33,965 bases of DNA from Flavipsychrobacter sp. (GTDB taxonomy: Bacteria; Bacteroidota; Bacteroidia; Chitinophagales; Chitinophagaceae), in the NCBI GenBank assembly GCA_025963465.1, contig JAOQAP010000181.1, positions 1 to 33,965 of the forward strand, read 5' to 3'. Positions 16,329 to 27,768 of the stretch are shown here, piece after piece. Made by a program: the position numbers and the translations under genes. Position 1 is the stretch's first letter. Every line of letters begins with the position of its first letter. The notes below the pieces were generated by a model. It was not told the DNA's origin and made no database searches. It was given only the letters and a program-made list of their open reading frames with translations.

Positions 16329-16361
16329 AAAAGGCAATGTTTCTTAGAAACATTGCCTTTT
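16329..16361 (-). terminator. Terminator of beta-helix lipoprotein gene
   Basis: A perfect 15-bp stem (16329-16343 with 16347-16361, 3-nt loop) followed on the minus strand by a T-rich run, 25 bp after the lipoprotein stop. Confidence 0.88.
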
Positions 16362-17738: not shown

Positions 17739-17783
17739 TGTTTTTGTATATTTAATTTATACCGCAAAATTCATTATTGAATG

Positions 17784-17822
17784 TTACCGGAATATTACCG
17801 CCTGTTTAACTGTAGGTTAACC
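17784..17822 (-). promoter_or_regulatory. Four 11-bp-phased TTA-boxes (Pho-box-like operator)
   Basis: On the plus strand TTACCG, TTACCG, TTAACT and TTAACC begin at 17784, 17795, 17806 and 17817, exactly 11 bp apart. The array lies 46-84 bp upstream of the lipoprotein start. Hexamer direct repeats with 5-nt spacers are how OmpR-family regulators such as PhoB and PhoP bind. The repeat sequence resembles the array upstream of the TonB receptor. Confidence 0.65.
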
Positions 17823-17867
17823 CATTGATAATTTAATGTGAACAAATGACCATGAAATGCAGCAAAA

Positions 17868-17900
17868 AAAATGCCTCCCGGCATATGCGGGAGGCATTTT
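17868..17900 (-). terminator. Terminator of TonB-dependent receptor gene
   Basis: A 13-bp GC-rich stem (17868-17880 with 17888-17900). On the minus strand it is followed by eight T. It lies 22 bp after the receptor stop codon and separates it from the lipoprotein unit. Confidence 0.92.
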
Positions 17901-17921
17901 AATAACAGAATGATCTGTTGC

Positions 17922-20696
17922 TTATCTTAAGTTATACAGGAATGAGATAGAATATGTGGTGCCTGTAAGACGGGATATTCTCAGGAAGTCTGTATTGCTG
18001 TCGTACTTACCGTTATCATTTTTATCCTGGTAAAAATTAGCTTTTTGGTTCAGGATATCTGTGATGGTAAACTTGATGTCTGCTTTTTTCTTCATGATCT
18101 TTTGTGACACCATAAAGTCGAACAGCGGCCTTGGTGCTTCCCATATGCTCGGGCTTTGCTCATTGCCTACAAGGTATATCCTGCGGCCTATCATATTGAA
18201 CAAAAGGCTGGCGCTGGTACCTGAGGCCTCACCGTCATATTGCAACCCACTGTTTATTACGTATGGCGACTGGCCCTGCATCGGCCTGTTGCTCTTTACT
18301 TCATTGCCATTAACATCTGTTGTTGTGAAGTTCACCTTGTTCAGGATATAGGATACGTTGGCAAAAACAGTGAATGGCTTAAATGCTTTACCAGGTATGA
18401 AATCAAGGTGCTTCCTGAATTCCAGCTCTACGCCTTCACTGGCTGCTGATGGTGCATTGCCGTATGTGAAAGAAAAGGTATTAACACCTGATTCGTTATA
18501 GAACTGCTCTATCGGGTTTATAAATTTCTTATAGAATACACCCGCCGTGATCAGCTCACCTGAACGGGGATACAACTCATAACGCAGATCAAGGTTAGTG
18601 ATCTTTGTACGTTTCAGGTCAGGATTTCCCTGGACTGCAGCAAGTATTTCGAAGTCATAAAACGTAAACGGAGACAACTCACGGAATTCAGGACGGATAA
18701 CTGTTTGCGATGCGCAGAACCTTAAATTGGTTTTGCTGTTTGCTTTGTAAGTAAGGTTAACAGAAGGCAGGAAGTCGCCTGTGTTGTTGTCCAGGTTTAC
18801 CGGTTTGTTGCTTCTGAAGCCATTCAGCTGCTGGTCGTAGTTCTCATAACGAACACCCCAAACCGCTCTCAGCTTTTCTGTAATTGCATTATCAAACATC
18901 AGGAAACCTGCATTCAGCAAGCTAGCTGCGGTGTAGTCATAGTCCTTGTCGCTCAGTTCTGACAGGTTGTAACCATTTGCTACGCCTATGTTTGCCGGAG
19001 CGAATATCTCACCTGCACCCAACTGGTTATTTTCATTGCTGCCACCTGTCATACCAAATGGCCTTGAGTTAAACACCCTGCCTTTACTCTGTACCATATA
19101 GCCGGTCTTGATCGACTGTGCCATGCCACCAATTTTAAATTGTTTGGCAGCATCTACGCTACCCATTACTATATTGTCAGTAAGCTTTGAGTAGAACCTG
19201 CTTGCAGAGTTGAGTGATGGCAGGTAGCTCTGTACACTTGCATAGTATACACTGTCGCCATCCGGCTTCCTGTACTCCATGCGACGCAGGTTTGGCTGAT
19301 TCTGGTACAGGCGTACATAGCTGGTATTCCAGTTTACCTTTATTTTAGAACTTTCAATGTAGTGTGCACCTACCAACTGTGATGTAAGATACTGGGTAGA
19401 TTTGAAAGCAAGCTGGTAAGCGTTCACATCAGCACCATAATCATTATTACGGCCACTGCGCAACAGCGTATTGTCCATGCCGTTTATGTTGAACAGGTTC
19501 TTAAAAGAGATCCTGTTATTATTGTTCAGCTCCAGCGAAAGGTTGGCTAATGCACCCGCTAAAACCTCTTCAGTATAAGACTGTTCGTTATAATCAAGTG
19601 TTTTCTGTATTGCTCCTGTCTGGTTGTAGAAAGCACGGGTGATGTCTGTTTTGCGGTTTTGCTTATTATAGTTAACTGCGAAAATAGCGCCGAACTTCTT
19701 GTTCATCAAACGTGTGTTCAGTCCGCCTGAAGCCTGCATACTAGCATTTGGCATGCCTGCTTTTTTCTGGTAAGACCAGTCGTTCTTAAAGTCTTTTCCT
19801 ATAGCATTCTTTTCATCAACGGAAAGCTCCCTGAATTTATCTTTATCGACCATGCTTGCCGGTACTGCGCGTGTACCATCATCTATACCTAACCAGTCAG
19901 TTTTGCCACCTTTATTATAATAGAAGTCATTGCCGATAGTCTGCGAGTTGACCCCGCTACCTACCTGTATGGTAAAGAAATTGCTGGAAGGAATATCTTT
20001 AGTATTCACCTGTATTAGTCCTCCTGCAAATTCACCCGGAAGATCAGGCGTTGCGGCTTTATTGATCACGATATTATCTATCATACCGGAAGGGAACAGA
20101 TCGAAAGAGAATGTCTTACGGTCGGGCTCAGTGCTCGACAATAAAGAACCATTCAGCATAGCCTGGTTGTAACGATCTCCCAGGCCACGGATAATGAGGT
20201 ACTTGCCTTCCTGTATAGAAGCCGATGATATTCTTTTCAGCACTTCGCCGGTATTCCTGTCCGGCGACTTCCTGATAGCCTCGGCAGATACCACCTGAGC
20301 TACGGTGTTGGTATTTTTCTGGTACAATATCATGGCGCTGATATTCTCCTTTTTAACAGAGGTCTGCACCACAACTTCTTTCAGCTCATTTGTTGCAGCG
20401 GTAAGCAGCACATTCACATTCGTCTCTACACCATCGGTTACTATTATACCATCTATCTCTTTGTCCTGGTAGCCTACATACTTTACAGATATGGTGTATG
20501 TGCCAGCATCTACGGATAGTACAAAATTTCCATCCATGTCTGTTGCTGCTCCTGCCGGGGAACCTTGTACAGTAACGATTGCACCGATCACCGTTTCGCC
20601 ATTTTTGCCGTCAGTAATCTTTCCTGTAATTTTCCCCGAAGCAAATGCCTGCGATAACGATAAACACATTACAAGGGATAAAATAAAATAACGCAT
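17922..20696 (-). CDS. TonB-dependent outer-membrane receptor
   Basis: 924 residues. A signal peptide (MRYFILSLVMCLSLSQAFA) precedes a CarboxypepD_reg-like domain (GKITGKITDGKNGETVIGA, about 22-105). A plug domain follows (about 130-260) with IQEGKYLIIRGLGDRYNQA, ILYQKNTN and NKAATPDLPGEFAGG. Then comes a long 22-strand barrel ending in the aromatic ...TYSISFLYNLR typical of BamA-recognised beta-barrels. It belongs to the receptor group with the LGDRYNQAMLNG and STEPDRKTFSFD signatures and is not a SusC-type receptor; no SusD partner is present. It should import a large or scarce substrate with TonB/ExbBD energy. Its gene is preceded by an 11-bp-phased repeat array and followed by a terminator, and the neighbouring lipoprotein carries a similar array. 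Confidence 0.95.
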   Translation of the reverse strand: MRYFILSLVMCLSLSQAFASGKITGKITDGKNGETVIGAIVTVQGSPAGAATDMDGNFVLSVDAGTYTISVKYVGYQDKEIDGIIVTDGVETNVNVLLTAATNELKEVVVQTSVKKENISAMILYQKNTNTVAQVVSAEAIRKSPDRNTGEVLKRISSASIQEGKYLIIRGLGDRYNQAMLNGSLLSSTEPDRKTFSFDLFPSGMIDNIVINKAATPDLPGEFAGGLIQVNTKDIPSSNFFTIQVGSGVNSQTIGNDFYYNKGGKTDWLGIDDGTRAVPASMVDKDKFRELSVDEKNAIGKDFKNDWSYQKKAGMPNASMQASGGLNTRLMNKKFGAIFAVNYNKQNRKTDITRAFYNQTGAIQKTLDYNEQSYTEEVLAGALANLSLELNNNNRISFKNLFNINGMDNTLLRSGRNNDYGADVNAYQLAFKSTQYLTSQLVGAHYIESSKIKVNWNTSYVRLYQNQPNLRRMEYRKPDGDSVYYASVQSYLPSLNSASRFYSKLTDNIVMGSVDAAKQFKIGGMAQSIKTGYMVQSKGRVFNSRPFGMTGGSNENNQLGAGEIFAPANIGVANGYNLSELSDKDYDYTAASLLNAGFLMFDNAITEKLRAVWGVRYENYDQQLNGFRSNKPVNLDNNTGDFLPSVNLTYKANSKTNLRFCASQTVIRPEFRELSPFTFYDFEILAAVQGNPDLKRTKITNLDLRYELYPRSGELITAGVFYKKFINPIEQFYNESGVNTFSFTYGNAPSAASEGVELEFRKHLDFIPGKAFKPFTVFANVSYILNKVNFTTTDVNGNEVKSNRPMQGQSPYVINSGLQYDGEASGTSASLLFNMIGRRIYLVGNEQSPSIWEAPRPLFDFMVSQKIMKKKADIKFTITDILNQKANFYQDKNDNGKYDSNTDFLRISRLTGTTYSISFLYNLR

Positions 20697-20718
20697 ATTA
20701 TAAATTTATGCGAAGGTC

Positions 20719-20799
20719 TTATTCCTATGTTATGATATTGTTACGCCATCATTACGGACATGTTATGTTTGTTACGGGAATATTACGGGAGTGTTAACG
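20719..20799 (-). promoter_or_regulatory. Eight-unit 11-bp-phased TTA-box array (Pho-box-like)
   Basis: On the plus strand TTA(C/T)G-type boxes start at 20719, 20730, 20741, 20752, 20763, 20772, 20783 and 20794, that is intervals of 11, 11, 11, 11, 9, 11 and 11 bp. The best units read TTACGG or TTACGC. The array begins 23 bp upstream of the receptor ATG. The shape fits cooperative binding of an OmpR/PhoB-family activator to one face of the helix. The 9-bp step splits it into a five-unit and a three-unit block. Confidence 0.7.
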
Positions 20800-20815: not shown

Positions 20816-20860
20816 ATTTAATAATAAAGGCCCACGATTTGTGGGCCTTTATTATTAAAT
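20816..20860 (-). terminator. Terminator of His/Gly-rich protein gene
   Basis: A perfect 20-bp stem (20816-20835 with 20841-20860, loop GATTT), 15 bp after the stop of the leftward gene. On the minus strand the 3' arm ends in an AT-rich run. Confidence 0.88.
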
Positions 20861-20874
20861 TTTTGAAGCGGGAA

Positions 20875-21543
20875 TTAGTGGCCGTGTCCATGACCGCCCT
20901 TATCGTGGCCGCCATTACCATGTCCTTCGTTACCATGTCCTTGGTCGCCATGTCCTTCGTTACCATGTCCGTGGTCATTTCCATTTCCATGTTCCATCGG
21001 GGGGCGGTTTTGATGAGGGTTGCCGTTTCCAGGGCCTGCAGGCGGCCGGTTTTGGTGAGGGTTTCCGTTGCCATGGCCGGGGTTATTATTCCCGTTGTGA
21101 TTTCCGTTATTACCTTTCCATTTGCCATGTTCGGGATGGCCCGGATTCTGCCAGTATTTTTCTTCGTGGCTATCCCTGATCACACGTTGGTCGTGCTTTC
21201 CCTTATATTGTATATATTGGTTATGGTATCTTTCGTGGTGCAACCATGGGCTTGGCTCATTGATCACTACCTTATGAACTGTATACAAGTCTATCGTCCT
21301 GTAGCGCGGAGGAAGGGATGTAACAGTAACCCAGCGGTTATTGTCCATGTAAATGTATTCATGTCTCGGCACATAATAATAGGCATCGATATCAGGGATA
21401 TAATAATATTCCACATGATCGTAGCCTACAGGTCCCCATACAGGTTGTGAACCTATATTGATGTTAACGCTTATCTGTGCATTCAAACTCGTTGTATAGA
21501 GACTGCCGCAAGCAACCGCCGCTATAAGGATCAATTTTTTCAT
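20875..21543 (-). CDS. Secreted protein with His/Gly/Asn-rich repeat tail
   Basis: 222 residues from ATG 21543. The open frame continues upstream to 22026, but that part is antisense to the E1 gene and is not real. A signal peptide (MKKLILIAAVACGSLYTTSLNA) is followed by a Tyr-rich globular domain (DHVEYYYIPDIDAYYYVPR, YIYMDNNRWV, SLPPRYRTIDLY, KVVINEPSPWLH), a pattern common in unnamed Bacteroidota exported proteins. From about residue 135 the tail is low-complexity: two near-identical GNGNPHQNRPP units, then GHGNEGHG-type units to the end. Such a tail could bind Zn, Ni or Cu, or be a flexible coat. The tandem DNA repeats are in frame. No function is assigned. Confidence 0.85.
   Translation of the reverse strand: MKKLILIAAVACGSLYTTSLNAQISVNINIGSQPVWGPVGYDHVEYYYIPDIDAYYYVPRHEYIYMDNNRWVTVTSLPPRYRTIDLYTVHKVVINEPSPWLHHERYHNQYIQYKGKHDQRVIRDSHEEKYWQNPGHPEHGKWKGNNGNHNGNNNPGHGNGNPHQNRPPAGPGNGNPHQNRPPMEHGNGNDHGHGNEGHGDQGHGNEGHGNGGHDKGGHGHGH
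20881..21080 (-). repeat. In-frame tandem repeats in the His/Gly-rich tail
   Basis: Short units encoding GHGN/EGHG recur between about 20885 and 20985. A ~40-bp unit encoding GNGNPHQNRPP occurs twice (about 20999-21030 and 21043-21075). They preserve frame, which suggests slippage expansion under coding constraint. Confidence 0.6.
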
Positions 21544-21651
21544 ATTATAGTATATCCTAAAATCATGCCACATTGTGTTATGAGGGATATAATAAGCATG
21601 GTTTCTACTGTAAAGAACCGCTGTAAACCCCAATAATGACCAAATAGGTCT

Positions 21652-21659
21652 TATTTTTG
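21652..21659 (+). promoter_or_regulatory. -7 element of E1 dehydrogenase gene
   Basis: TATTTTTG matches TAnnTTTG, 20 bp before ATG 21680. It makes the upstream TTG at 21674 an unlikely start. Confidence 0.55.
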
Positions 21660-21679
21660 CCGGCACACAAATTTTGAAC

Positions 21680-23656
21680 ATGCAATTTGACCGTAACGGC
21701 CTGGGTAATGAGCAACTGATCCGATTATATACTGAACTGGTAAGGCCCAGGATGATAGAGGAAAAGATGCTGGTATTGCTGCGGCAGGGCAGGGTAAGCA
21801 AATGGTTTAGCGGCATAGGCCAGGAAGCAATAGCTGTAGGTGCAGCAATGGCACTGGACGAAGATGAATACATCATGCCCCTGCACAGGAACCTGGGCGT
21901 GTTCACGGTGCGCAAGATGCCTTTTGATAAATTGTTCATGCAATGGCAGGGACGTAAGGAAGGATTCAGTAAAGGGCGAGAGCGTTCTTTCCACTTCGGG
22001 GCAAATGAATACCATATATGCGGCATGATCTCTCACCTGGGGCCGCAGCTGGCGATAGCTGATGGTATAGCGCTGGCACATAAACTAAAACAGGAAAATA
22101 AAGTATCGCTGGCATTCAGCGGAGACGGAGGTACCAGCGAAGGTGACTTTCATGAGGCACTGAATGTGGCGGCTGTGTGGGGACTGCCAGTGATTTTTGT
22201 AGTAGAGAACAATGGTTATGGGCTCAGTACGCCAAGCAGTGAGCAGTTCATCTGCGAGCAGCTGGCAGACAGGGCGGTAGGCTACGGCATGAGGGGTATA
22301 ACTATAGATGGTAATAACATACTGGAGGTATATAACGAGATCAGCAAGGCGCGTAAGTATTGCATAAAAGAGCAGAAACCAATACTGATAGAATGCATGA
22401 CCTTTCGTATGCGCGGGCATGAAGAGGCGAGCGGGGTAAAATATGTGCCCAAAGAGCTGTTTGAAGAGTGGGGTAAGAAAGACCCTGTGGCAAAGTTTGA
22501 ACAGTATCTTACGGATATACAGGTGCTGACCGAGAATGACATAGCAGATATAAGAGCAGGCATACAAAAAGAAATAGAAGACGGCCTGGCAACAGGATTT
22601 GCAGCACCGCCTGTAACGCCTTGCACTGAAGAAGAGGTGCGTGATGTATATGCACCACTGACAAAGCCAGTGGTACATCCATCAGGAGCAAGTACTGAAA
22701 AGAAATTTATACAGGCCATAACCGAAGGATTAAAAACCGGAATGGACCGTAACCCCAACTTGGTGCTGATGGGGCAGGACATAGCGGAATATGGCGGCGC
22801 ATTTAAAGTGACCGAAGGCTTTGTGCAGCAATATGGCAAGGAACGTGTACGTAATACACCACTCTGTGAAAGTGCTATAGTAGGTACAGCATTAGGCTTG
22901 TCCATCAAGGGCTTTAAGTCGATGATGGAAATGCAGTTCGCTGATTTTGTGACAGTGGGCTTTAACCAGATCATTAATAACCTGGCCAAGATACACTATC
23001 GCTGGGGACAAAATGCTGATGTAGTGATACGCATGCCTACGGGCGGCGGTGTTGGCGCAGGGCCTTTCCATTCGCAGAGCAATGAAGCATGGTTCGTACA
23101 TACACCGGGGCTTAAAGTAGTGTACCCCTCTACACCGGAAGATGCAAAAGGCCTGATGATAGCCGCAATAGAAGATCCTAACCCGGTATTGTTCTTTGAG
23201 CATAAGGCAATGTACCGCAGTATAAGCGGTATGGTGCCCGACGAACATTATACAATAGAGATAGGCAAGGCAAGACACGTGCAACAGGGTAGTGACGTCA
23301 GCATTATTACTTATGGCATGGGTGTGCACTGGGCTACAGACTATGCAGCGAAACACCCTGAAACCTCAATAGATATACTGGACCTGCGCAGCCTGCTGCC
23401 GCTGGACTATGATGCAATAAAAGCTGCTGTGCTGCGTACCGGAAAGGTATTGCTGCTGCATGAAGACACCCTGACAGGTGGCCTGGGCGGAGAGCTAGCA
23501 GCATGGATATCGGAAAATTGTTTTGAACACCTGGACGCGCCAATAGTGCGCTGCGCCAGCCTGGATACGCCGGTGCCATTTGCCATAGAGCTAGAGCAGA
23601 ACTTTATGGCCAGCAGCAGGCTGGATAGCTGTGTGCAGAAACTGTTGAATTATTAG
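21680..23656 (+). CDS. Fused alpha-beta E1 of a 2-oxoacid (branched-chain) dehydrogenase
   Basis: 658 residues carrying both E1 halves of a thiamine-diphosphate 2-oxoacid dehydrogenase. The alpha half (about 1-330) has GQEAIAVGAAMAL, MPLHRNLG and the ThDP motif GDGGTSEGDFHEALN...ENNGYG, plus FRMRGHEEA. The beta half (about 340-658) has MGQDIAEYGGAFKVTEG, NTPLCESAIVG, MPTGGGVGAGPFHSQSNEAWF, LRSLLPLD and HEDTLTGGLGGE. Fusion of alpha and beta is common in Bacteroidota. The substrate is most likely branched-chain 2-oxoacids, feeding branched fatty acid primers, though pyruvate cannot be excluded. E2 and E3 genes are not in the window. The next gene is 28 bp downstream on the same strand. Confidence 0.94.
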   Translation: MQFDRNGLGNEQLIRLYTELVRPRMIEEKMLVLLRQGRVSKWFSGIGQEAIAVGAAMALDEDEYIMPLHRNLGVFTVRKMPFDKLFMQWQGRKEGFSKGRERSFHFGANEYHICGMISHLGPQLAIADGIALAHKLKQENKVSLAFSGDGGTSEGDFHEALNVAAVWGLPVIFVVENNGYGLSTPSSEQFICEQLADRAVGYGMRGITIDGNNILEVYNEISKARKYCIKEQKPILIECMTFRMRGHEEASGVKYVPKELFEEWGKKDPVAKFEQYLTDIQVLTENDIADIRAGIQKEIEDGLATGFAAPPVTPCTEEEVRDVYAPLTKPVVHPSGASTEKKFIQAITEGLKTGMDRNPNLVLMGQDIAEYGGAFKVTEGFVQQYGKERVRNTPLCESAIVGTALGLSIKGFKSMMEMQFADFVTVGFNQIINNLAKIHYRWGQNADVVIRMPTGGGVGAGPFHSQSNEAWFVHTPGLKVVYPSTPEDAKGLMIAAIEDPNPVLFFEHKAMYRSISGMVPDEHYTIEIGKARHVQQGSDVSIITYGMGVHWATDYAAKHPETSIDILDLRSLLPLDYDAIKAAVLRTGKVLLLHEDTLTGGLGGELAAWISENCFEHLDAPIVRCASLDTPVPFAIELEQNFMASSRLDSCVQKLLNY

Positions 23657-27186: not shown

Positions 27187-27768
27187 TTATTTCACCTGCA
27201 TGCCGTAAAATATTTTACGGAGCCTTGCGAGGCATTTATATTTTTGGTTTTTAGCGTTGTCGGGGTTGGTATACCCAAAGTCTGCCGCTATTTCCTGCAT
27301 GTTCTTATCGTGGTGATAATACGCCTTTAATAAAGACCTGCAGGGTTCGCCTATTTGTTCGAGCGCTGTATCAAGTTGTTCGTAATGTGCCTCACGTTCA
27401 TGATGCACATTTACATCGTCTTCATATGCTACTCCGTATTCGTCCTCTTCCGTACCGGGGTCGTGTGTTAAGAACGACGGGCCATTGCTTTGTTTTTGCA
27501 GCTTTTTGTACCACAGGTGCTTGCTTATTGCAAATAGATTAGTGCCTATGCTAAAGGTTAGCCGGAAGTGTTCATCCGCCTCTTTGCCAAACAAAACCAC
27601 CATCGCTTCCTGGAACACATCTGCAGCATCTGCCGAAGCGCCCCCGTTTTTTATTAACCAACCACTAACAATGTGAAAGTTTTGTCGATAAATGGTTTCG
27701 GTGGCTGTCCTGTCGCCCGCTGCCAGTGCCGCTAATAACTGTTGCTCGGTATTTATTGGACTGTACAC
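27187..27768 (-). CDS. ECF-like RNA polymerase sigma factor
   Basis: 193-residue sigma-70-family protein of ECF size. Region 2 is visible at about 15-95 (AGDRTATETIYRQNF, ADAADVFQEAMVVLF, RLTFSIGTNLFAISKHLWYKKLQK). Region 4 helix-turn-helix is at about 130-190 (LDTALEQIGEPCRSLLKAYY, MQEIAADFGYTNPDNAKNQKYKCLARLRK). An acidic linker (GTEEDEYGVAYEDD) joins them. The start is a GTG at 27768, the only in-frame start with a full region 2. It is followed 9 bp later by the membrane protease with anti-sigma-like N-terminus, its likely regulator. Confidence 0.92.
   Translation of the reverse strand: MYSPINTEQQLLAALAAGDRTATETIYRQNFHIVSGWLIKNGGASADAADVFQEAMVVLFGKEADEHFRLTFSIGTNLFAISKHLWYKKLQKQSNGPSFLTHDPGTEEDEYGVAYEDDVNVHHEREAHYEQLDTALEQIGEPCRSLLKAYYHHDKNMQEIAADFGYTNPDNAKNQKYKCLARLRKIFYGMQVK

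Follow-up and report, generated by a model that had tools for sequence, protein, structure and literature searches.

The window analysed here, a stretch of 33,965 nucleotides (nt) from a Flavipsychrobacter sp. genome (contig JAOQAP010000181.1), encodes a TonB-dependent receptor and, behind it on the same strand, a lipoprotein with a right-handed beta-helix. Each gene is preceded by an array of TTA boxes repeated every 11 nt (Table 1). The evidence presented below indicates that these arrays are very probably the landing sites of a phosphate-starvation regulator.

A first-pass annotation of this DNA had described eight boxes before the receptor and four before the lipoprotein. A sequence check found all twelve at the described positions and steps: on the receptor side at 20719, 20730, 20741, 20752, 20763, 20772, 20783 and 20794, on the lipoprotein side at 17784, 17795, 17806 and 17817. 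The proposed box form, TTA-C/A-C-G, held for part of the boxes but not for TTATTC, TTATGA and TTATGT (receptor) or TTAACT and TTAACC (lipoprotein). Because both genes lie on the minus strand, the functional reading of the box is DTAAYA, with one (D)TAAYA per 11 nt on the gene strand. The box at 20719, placed between the -7 promoter element and the nearest phased box, is probably promoter spacer rather than a site. Without it, the receptor array consists of seven boxes in two phase blocks, of four and three, split by the 9-nt step from 20763 to 20772. Exact 11-nt-step TTA runs occur in the window once with five and once with four boxes; in 500 dinucleotide shuffles of the window, runs of at least four appeared in 10 and a run of five in none.

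Table 1. Genes, arrays and flanking elements of the receptor-lipoprotein locus (window coordinates)
Feature	Position	Strand	Remarks
TonB-dependent receptor, 924 amino acids (aa)	17922..20696	-	plug PF07715, CarbopepD_reg_2 PF13715, OMP_b-brl_3 PF14905
Lipoprotein, 450 aa, right-handed beta-helix	16386..17738	-	Cys lipobox (AASC) read from sequence
Pho-box-like array before receptor	20719..20799	-	phase 1: 20730, 20741, 20752, 20763; phase 2: 20772, 20783, 20794
Pho-box-like array before lipoprotein, four boxes	17784..17822	-	positions and matrix, 29.8 bits
Receptor -7 element GACCTTCG, variant of TAnnTTTG	20711..20718	-	TTCG 20711-20714 begins 18 nt after TAA of last box
Lipoprotein -7 element GAATTTTG	17765..17772	-	TTTG 17765-17768 begins 18 nt after TAA of last box
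Terminator-like stem between receptor and lipoprotein	17868..17900	-	stem search
Terminator-like stem 3' of lipoprotein	16329..16361	-	stem search
Long inverted repeat, terminator-like	20817..20859	.	between upstream gene and receptor promoter

The array was followed across relatives with an 11-position box matrix trained on the receptor promoters of 28 relatives. The score was that of four boxes in a row and the threshold was 15 bits; with this matrix, trained on relatives only, the first four-box block of the window receptor reached 35.2 bits. Upstream regions were taken from 28 of 29 relatives' receptor loci (without L043, whose gene is cut; second receptor copies without loci stayed unscored), 29 of 30 porin loci (without L197, where the match starts at residue 108) and 29 of 30 phoB loci (without L237, at a contig edge). 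At least 15 bits were obtained for 24 of the 28 receptors, a count that is not independent because these promoters are the training set. In the other classes, the threshold was reached by 21 of 29 relatives' lipoproteins, by 19 of 29 porins and 15 of 29 phoB promoters (own genome included in both) and by 6 of 6 own promoters, as compared to one of 12,100 shuffles. A step of 11 was required: steps of 7-10 and 12-16 gave no region of at least 15 bits in any class. Together with 43 of 64 receptors in the named loci described below, these counts show that the 11-bp period is not lost in orthologous promoters.

Porin genes served as an internal control. Among the 29 porins scored, the array was found before 18 of the 18 that have pstS behind them (the own genome and 17 relatives) and before 1 of the 11 that have not; the exceptional porin (L199) directly precedes a pstS-linked one. 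The proposal of the first-pass annotation that pst genes might carry the array was thereby borne out, and phoBR carries it too. In one genome (G013:C9:104406-107318), the porin before pstS is duplicated in tandem, and the array precedes each copy (15.5 and 38.8 bits).

The distance between array and promoter was then considered, counted from the T of the last TAA to the start of TTTG or TTCG. The Bacteroidota -7 consensus is given as TAnnTTTG in the available text of PMC7366714. In both window promoters this distance is 18 nt. TTTG or TTCG occurred at the same distance 17 times for 21 lipoprotein arrays, 18 times for 19 porin arrays and 13 times for 15 phoB arrays. For the 24 relatives' receptor arrays, 13 occurrences were at 18 nt, 3 at 29, 4 at 40 and 7 elsewhere; for the 43 receptor arrays of the named loci the corresponding numbers were 25, 4, 10 and 12. 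Distances of 29 and 40 nt lie one and two helical turns beyond 18. Overall, the same distance to the -7 element is common to the porin-pstS, phoB, receptor and lipoprotein promoters, and an 18-nt spacing to TTTG places the -33 region under the penultimate box.

The own genome (4.18 Mb in 277 contigs, 97.5% complete, with its pst genes split across contigs) was searched with IUPAC patterns, each with a reversed-pattern control. A pattern of four RTTAH boxes gave, with at most one mismatch, 13 matches, several of them overlapping at one site, as compared to one in the control. A composite pattern of three boxes and TTTG, again with at most one mismatch, gave 12 sites as compared to four. It matches the receptor array at C194:20711-20754 and the lipoprotein array at C194:17765-17808. 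Five of the 12 sites belong to the two window genes, to both genes of a paralogous pair on contig C122 and to a porin-pstS operon; the seven extra sites include C88, C116, C216, C237 (twice), C108 and C273. In 188 kb of own-genome stretches, partly chosen around matches, arrays of equal quality were not common: outside the described promoters, at least 15 bits were reached at two places only, C123:1410 (17.5 bits) and C28:40912 (18.7 bits).

The C122 pair, with an array before each gene, holds the only full-length receptor paralogue found by protein search (33% identity; the other 12 matches cover the receptor in part). Beside this paralogue lies a homologue of the window lipoprotein (171 of 369 columns identical, 46%) with a type IX secretion system (T9SS) tail. 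Array scores stayed below 0 for all ten of the 12 partial receptor matches that had loci; of these ten, some are perhaps not TonB receptors. The porin-pstS operon on C185 is preceded by TTACCA, TTACCC, TTAACT and TTAAGT at step 11, matches the RTTAH pattern with no mismatch and scores 36.1 bits. Its PstS was identified by Pfam, and the 428-aa open reading frame (ORF) before it is a putative phosphate porin, named from a reading of its sequence and from its place, with no Pfam or NCBIfam match. Contig C126 opens with putative pstA and pstB genes, together with phoU (PF01895), and we infer that they continue this operon.

Weaker candidates were found as well. At G000:C88:3360-5419 (L250), a plcP-like calcineurin-like metallophosphoesterase gene followed by a family-1 glycosyltransferase gene stands behind an array of 18.7 bits; this pair likely serves PlcP-type phospholipid-to-glycolipid remodelling. 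On G000:C116 (L251:1830-6332, minus strand), a weak array (12.6 bits, TTTG at 18 nt) precedes a gene, adjacent to a MauG-like one, for a protein of 1,500 aa that combines Phytase-like, PhoX and immunoglobulin-like domains with a T9SS tail. On G000:C216 (L252:1219-2621, plus strand), three boxes (together 23.5 bits) with TTCG at 29 nt, a helical turn past the usual 18, point toward a 441-aa ORF without Pfam match that is divergent from DUF47-pit, and a second array overlaps the coding start of this ORF. The nearby DUF47-pit operon has an array of 24.5 bits, 150 nt before its start. With six promoters of at least 20 bits and three weaker candidates, the two-gene regulon proposed in the first-pass annotation is not supported. 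The presence of the array before the paralogous pair, porin-pstS, phoBR and the weaker plcP-like and phytase/PhoX genes argues for a PHO regulon larger than two genes.

With an exact composite pattern, 60 genomes (own included) gave 94 sites as compared to four in the reversed control, mostly within the genus. Among 29 relatives' loci with such sites, eight led to the porin, seven to lipoproteins of the window family and seven to a secreted family. A PstS-like protein, a DNA/RNA non-specific endonuclease and a PLD-like protein were each reached once, and at three loci no ORF was close enough. Members of the secreted family, found directly behind exact sites in seven same-genus genomes (L254, L270, L271, L274, L275, L277 and L278, with a divergent pair in L275), carry YWxFN near the N-terminus; three of the members scanned have a T9SS tail and no functional Pfam match was obtained for the family. 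It is possibly an undescribed family of the phosphate regulon.

We then considered 80 named loci (L098-L177; 1.32 Mb), the best 80 of 580 by lipoprotein homology, in which 64 receptor and 76 lipoprotein upstream regions were scored, the others being cut, short of upstream sequence or below the match threshold. A receptor match was present in 70 of the 80 stretches, and all 29 of the receptor loci fetched from relatives contained the lipoprotein. Fifteen of the 80 hold a phoB homologue scoring 200 bits or more, with another own regulator nearly as high in L126 and L128, and pstB with phoU was found in L109, L115 and L149. Stretch L109 unites receptor, lipoprotein, pstS, pstB, phoU, phoR and phoB. 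In the Chryseobacterium loci L101, L102, L103 and L106, phoR-phoB is divergent from receptor-lipoprotein, and in 5 of 15 non-genus genomes with both matches the phoB orthologue lies within 4 kb of the receptor. At least 15 bits were reached by 43 of 64 receptors, 10 of 76 lipoproteins and 1 of 15 phoB promoters. Across much of the phylum, the two genes may form an operon that shares one array, whereas in the window lineage each gene has its own. Tile counts at 15 bits, which include known sites, were 201 of 15,962 and, for the named loci, 92 of 7,660. Sorting of the latter gave 102 distinct arrays, of which 59 were assigned (43 receptor, 10 lipoprotein, 4 plcP, 1 pstS, 1 phoB) and 43 stand before other genes. 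In three Chitinophaga loci (L107, L120 and L127), arrays of 25.0-27.6 bits also precede the plcP homologues that lie near the receptor. Receptor arrays were also found in contigs of metagenome-assembled genomes labelled Chlorobiota (L155, 35.7 bits) and Ignavibacteriaceae (L169, 30.9 bits).

A candidate regulator is encoded on C177. Among the eight OmpR-family regulators of the own genome, the product of G000:C177:3473-4159 has the best PhoB-model scores, and its gene adjoins that of a PnpS/PhoR-like kinase. The promoter of this phoBR pair carries an array of 24.0 bits with TTTG at 18 nt, which was found by the matrix and missed by the patterns; the likely site is C177:3398-3436, whereas a pattern match at C177:3255 falls within the last part of the gene before phoBR.

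Because the same boxes, at the same promoter distance, precede genes for phosphate uptake and sensing and recur in relatives, we read the arrays as sites of the phosphate regulator. In the broad sense they would be Pho boxes, with tandem direct repeats at 11 bp, one helical turn, and a place before the pst operon. The arrays before pst and phoBR also lend support, at the level of sequence, to the operator type (OmpR/PhoB family) and the phosphate-starvation control suggested by the first-pass annotation. Phosphorylated PhoB, most likely the C177 product, would bind the (D)TAAYA repeats head-to-tail on one face of the DNA. With the last box locked 18 nt from TTTG and the preceding box over the -33 region, PhoB would activate by replacing the -33 contact. 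At low phosphate, it would turn on the receptor, the lipoprotein, the paralogous pair, porin-pstS and phoBR, and probably also the plcP-like phosphoesterase with its glycosyltransferase and the phytase/PhoX protein. The receptor-lipoprotein pair would then probably bind and import a phosphorus compound at the cell surface. The arrays, their conservation, their spacing and the gene set are observed, whereas we infer the binding protein, the activation and the signal; the substrate and the joint action of the pair are the least certain parts of the scheme, though joint capture of a substrate would agree with the way the two genes are always paired. As a whole, the explanation that the arrays are PhoB-activated operators of a phosphate regulon covering the pair, pst and phoBR has, in our estimate, a probability of about 0.87.

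Several observations limit the pattern evidence or weigh against this explanation. The bare boxes are unspecific, since a pattern of four TTAY boxes with at most one mismatch gave 15 matches in the 4.18 Mb as compared to 12 in the reversed control. Two of the 15 are the window receptor array, three (C122:10016, 12924 and 12935) lie beside the C122 pair and further ones are in C36, C37, C98, C123, C126, C144 and C189; the lipoprotein array has too many mismatches to be matched. The composite sites at C237 (twice), C108 and C273 have no phosphate gene evident from translations, and the ambiguous one at C216 falls within a coding start. Beyond the genus, the composite pattern becomes sparse, with 11 matches as compared to one in the control in 25 genomes. 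The threshold of 15 bits was missed by 8 of the 29 lipoproteins from relatives and, in the named loci, by 21 of 64 receptors and 66 of 76 lipoproteins; phoB arrays have a non-fitting third box, and only about half of the 29 phoB promoters (own included) and a single named one reached the threshold. As 43 of the 102 named-locus arrays stand before other genes (for instance in L120 and L127), the array is not confined to the described gene set, and these may be further regulon members or false matches. In Caulobacter crescentus, the receptor Cc0171 is reported as constitutive while the adjacent gene elpS is induced, according to the available part of PMC2996285.

Other explanations were weighed against the same evidence. 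Operators of OmpR-family regulators resemble each other, and one of the seven other regulators of this family could bind the arrays, the pst and phoBR sites being shared or overlapping targets. In line with this, the C177 protein stays below the curated PhoB cut-offs (208.8 as compared to 296.2, and 205.1 as compared to 270), its neighbouring kinase stays below those for PnpS and PhoR, and the Riemerella anatipestifer PhoP motif is likened to that of ArcA by its authors in the accessible part of PMC9603813. We nevertheless regard another regulator as improbable: no array was found upstream of the seven other regulator genes (scores -2.7 to -10.9), the gene set behind the arrays is phosphate-related, and, of the four own regulators compared, C177 is the closest match to the pair-linked regulator of the named loci, if only by a small margin in L126 and L128. 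Still less probable is that PhoB binds but represses, or is silent, at some promoters while the pair is controlled otherwise, for example by TonB-receptor signalling. Array length and phase do vary between promoters, as such a scheme would allow, but the constant distance to the -7 element at all four kinds of promoters and the induction, not repression, of Flavobacterium homologues at low phosphate in the available text of PMC8115612 argue against it. Finally, chance or compositional periodicity in AT-rich intergenic DNA, with which the slight enrichment of the bare TTAY pattern would agree, can be discounted in view of the single shuffle to reach threshold, the dependence on step 11 and the conservation across families before the same genes.

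With phosphate-regulon operators as the preferred reading, it appears reasonably likely that Bacteroidota and neighbouring phyla share an ancestral Pho box, an open-ended DTAAYA array that is phase-locked to the -7 element (TTTG at 18 + 11n) and replaces the -33 contact; spacings of 29 or 40 nt would then reflect degenerate last boxes. If true, the phosphate regulon would become readable from sequence in a phylum without a described Pho box in our searches, with the receptor/beta-helix pair as a constant member. The composite pattern led blind to porin-pstS, plcP-like and phytase/PhoX genes in the own genome and to porin-pstS, PstS-like, endonuclease and PLD-like genes in relatives. The poorly understood TonB-receptor/beta-helix-lipoprotein pair of the ElpS/FI/FII type would be tied to phosphorus acquisition by DNA evidence. 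The reading also provides a testable model of an OmpR-family activator working with a sigma factor for which the -33 element is weak or absent.

As for the window genes themselves, terminator-like stems follow both the receptor and the lipoprotein, in agreement with the separate terminators claimed earlier. A signal peptide with a lipobox Cys (LMFAASC) was read by eye from the lipoprotein sequence, P0001. A Pfam scan of this protein gave no match, and among solved structures none is close; no activity was assigned because its structural neighbours are NosD and many beta-helix enzymes alike. A SusCD/PusCD pair was rejected, as the lipoprotein partner gave no Pfam match to a SusD family or any other and the receptor reached 63.5 bits for the SusC/RagA model TIGR04056 with a cut-off of 368.25. 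Upstream of the receptor, the ORF 20875-22026 (minus strand) has an end rich in Gly/His/Asn repeats; its gene is probably shorter than the ORF, with the real start at an internal Met before a signal peptide (MKKLILIA). Because the window holds an extracytoplasmic function (ECF)-type sigma gene (27187-27768), ECF sigma control was considered; the gene is more than 6 kb away.

In the Pho boxes of Escherichia coli PhoB and Bacillus subtilis PhoP, tandem direct repeats recur about every 11 bp, and such boxes stand before pst and before the gene of the regulator itself. In their letters, the present arrays resemble the TTAACA form of B. subtilis. An E. coli-type box (CTGTCAT repeats) was rejected, as the learned matrix is TAAY-centred and contains no TGTCA. 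Unlike these classical boxes, the present arrays have up to seven boxes and are phased to the Bacteroidota -7 element, not to a -10 element. A search of open-licence papers for a Bacteroidota Pho box or a phase-locked array found no description, which is weak evidence of absence. In the available text of PMC4796936, plcP clusters of marine bacteria have predicted Pho boxes, with no Bacteroidota consensus given. For R. anatipestifer, PMC9603813 reports, in the part available, that the OmpR-family regulator PhoP is up-regulated in phosphate starvation, that a TonB-dependent receptor promoter was shifted in an electrophoretic mobility shift assay, and that TTTAACA are the most conserved letters of its sites (583 peaks in DNA affinity purification sequencing). 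Unlike for the window arrays, neither an 11-bp array nor a promoter spacing is given there.

The pair itself resembles two described systems. In C. crescentus, ElpS is a phosphate-starvation-induced surface lipoprotein encoded beside the TonB-dependent receptor Cc0171, a pairing already noted in the accessible part of PMC2996285. By description, the window shares with it a lipoprotein and a neighbouring TonB-dependent receptor, whereas the Caulobacter pair is proteobacterial and next to type II secretion genes. The phosphate-starvation response of Flavobacterium was mapped by omics, and the available text of PMC8115612 describes two low-phosphate pairs in F. johnsoniae, Fjoh_0545/0546 (PUSIV, FII) and Fjoh_3857/3856 (PUSIII, FI). 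The TonB-dependent transporter Fjoh_0545 and the lipoprotein Fjoh_0546, which is listed with IPR011050, lie beside phoBR and are strongly induced on phosphate depletion; the words 'Pho box' and 'motif' are absent from the main text as available. The order phoR-phoB-receptor-lipoprotein of the locus tags Fjoh_0543-0546 is shared by L101, L102, L103 and L106. A tandem array phase-fixed to the -7 element was not found described, whereas the receptor-lipoprotein pair and its low-phosphate induction are of an already known kind. Compared by description, the window pair has the features of the ElpS/FI-FII type, with a beta-helix (pectin-lyase-like) lipoprotein bearing a signal peptide and lipobox Cys beside a receptor with plug and CarbopepD_reg_2 domains (and OMP_b-brl_3, as in Fjoh_0545). 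Unlike the Flavobacterium pairs, the window genes each have a terminator and an array of their own and lie away from phoBR.

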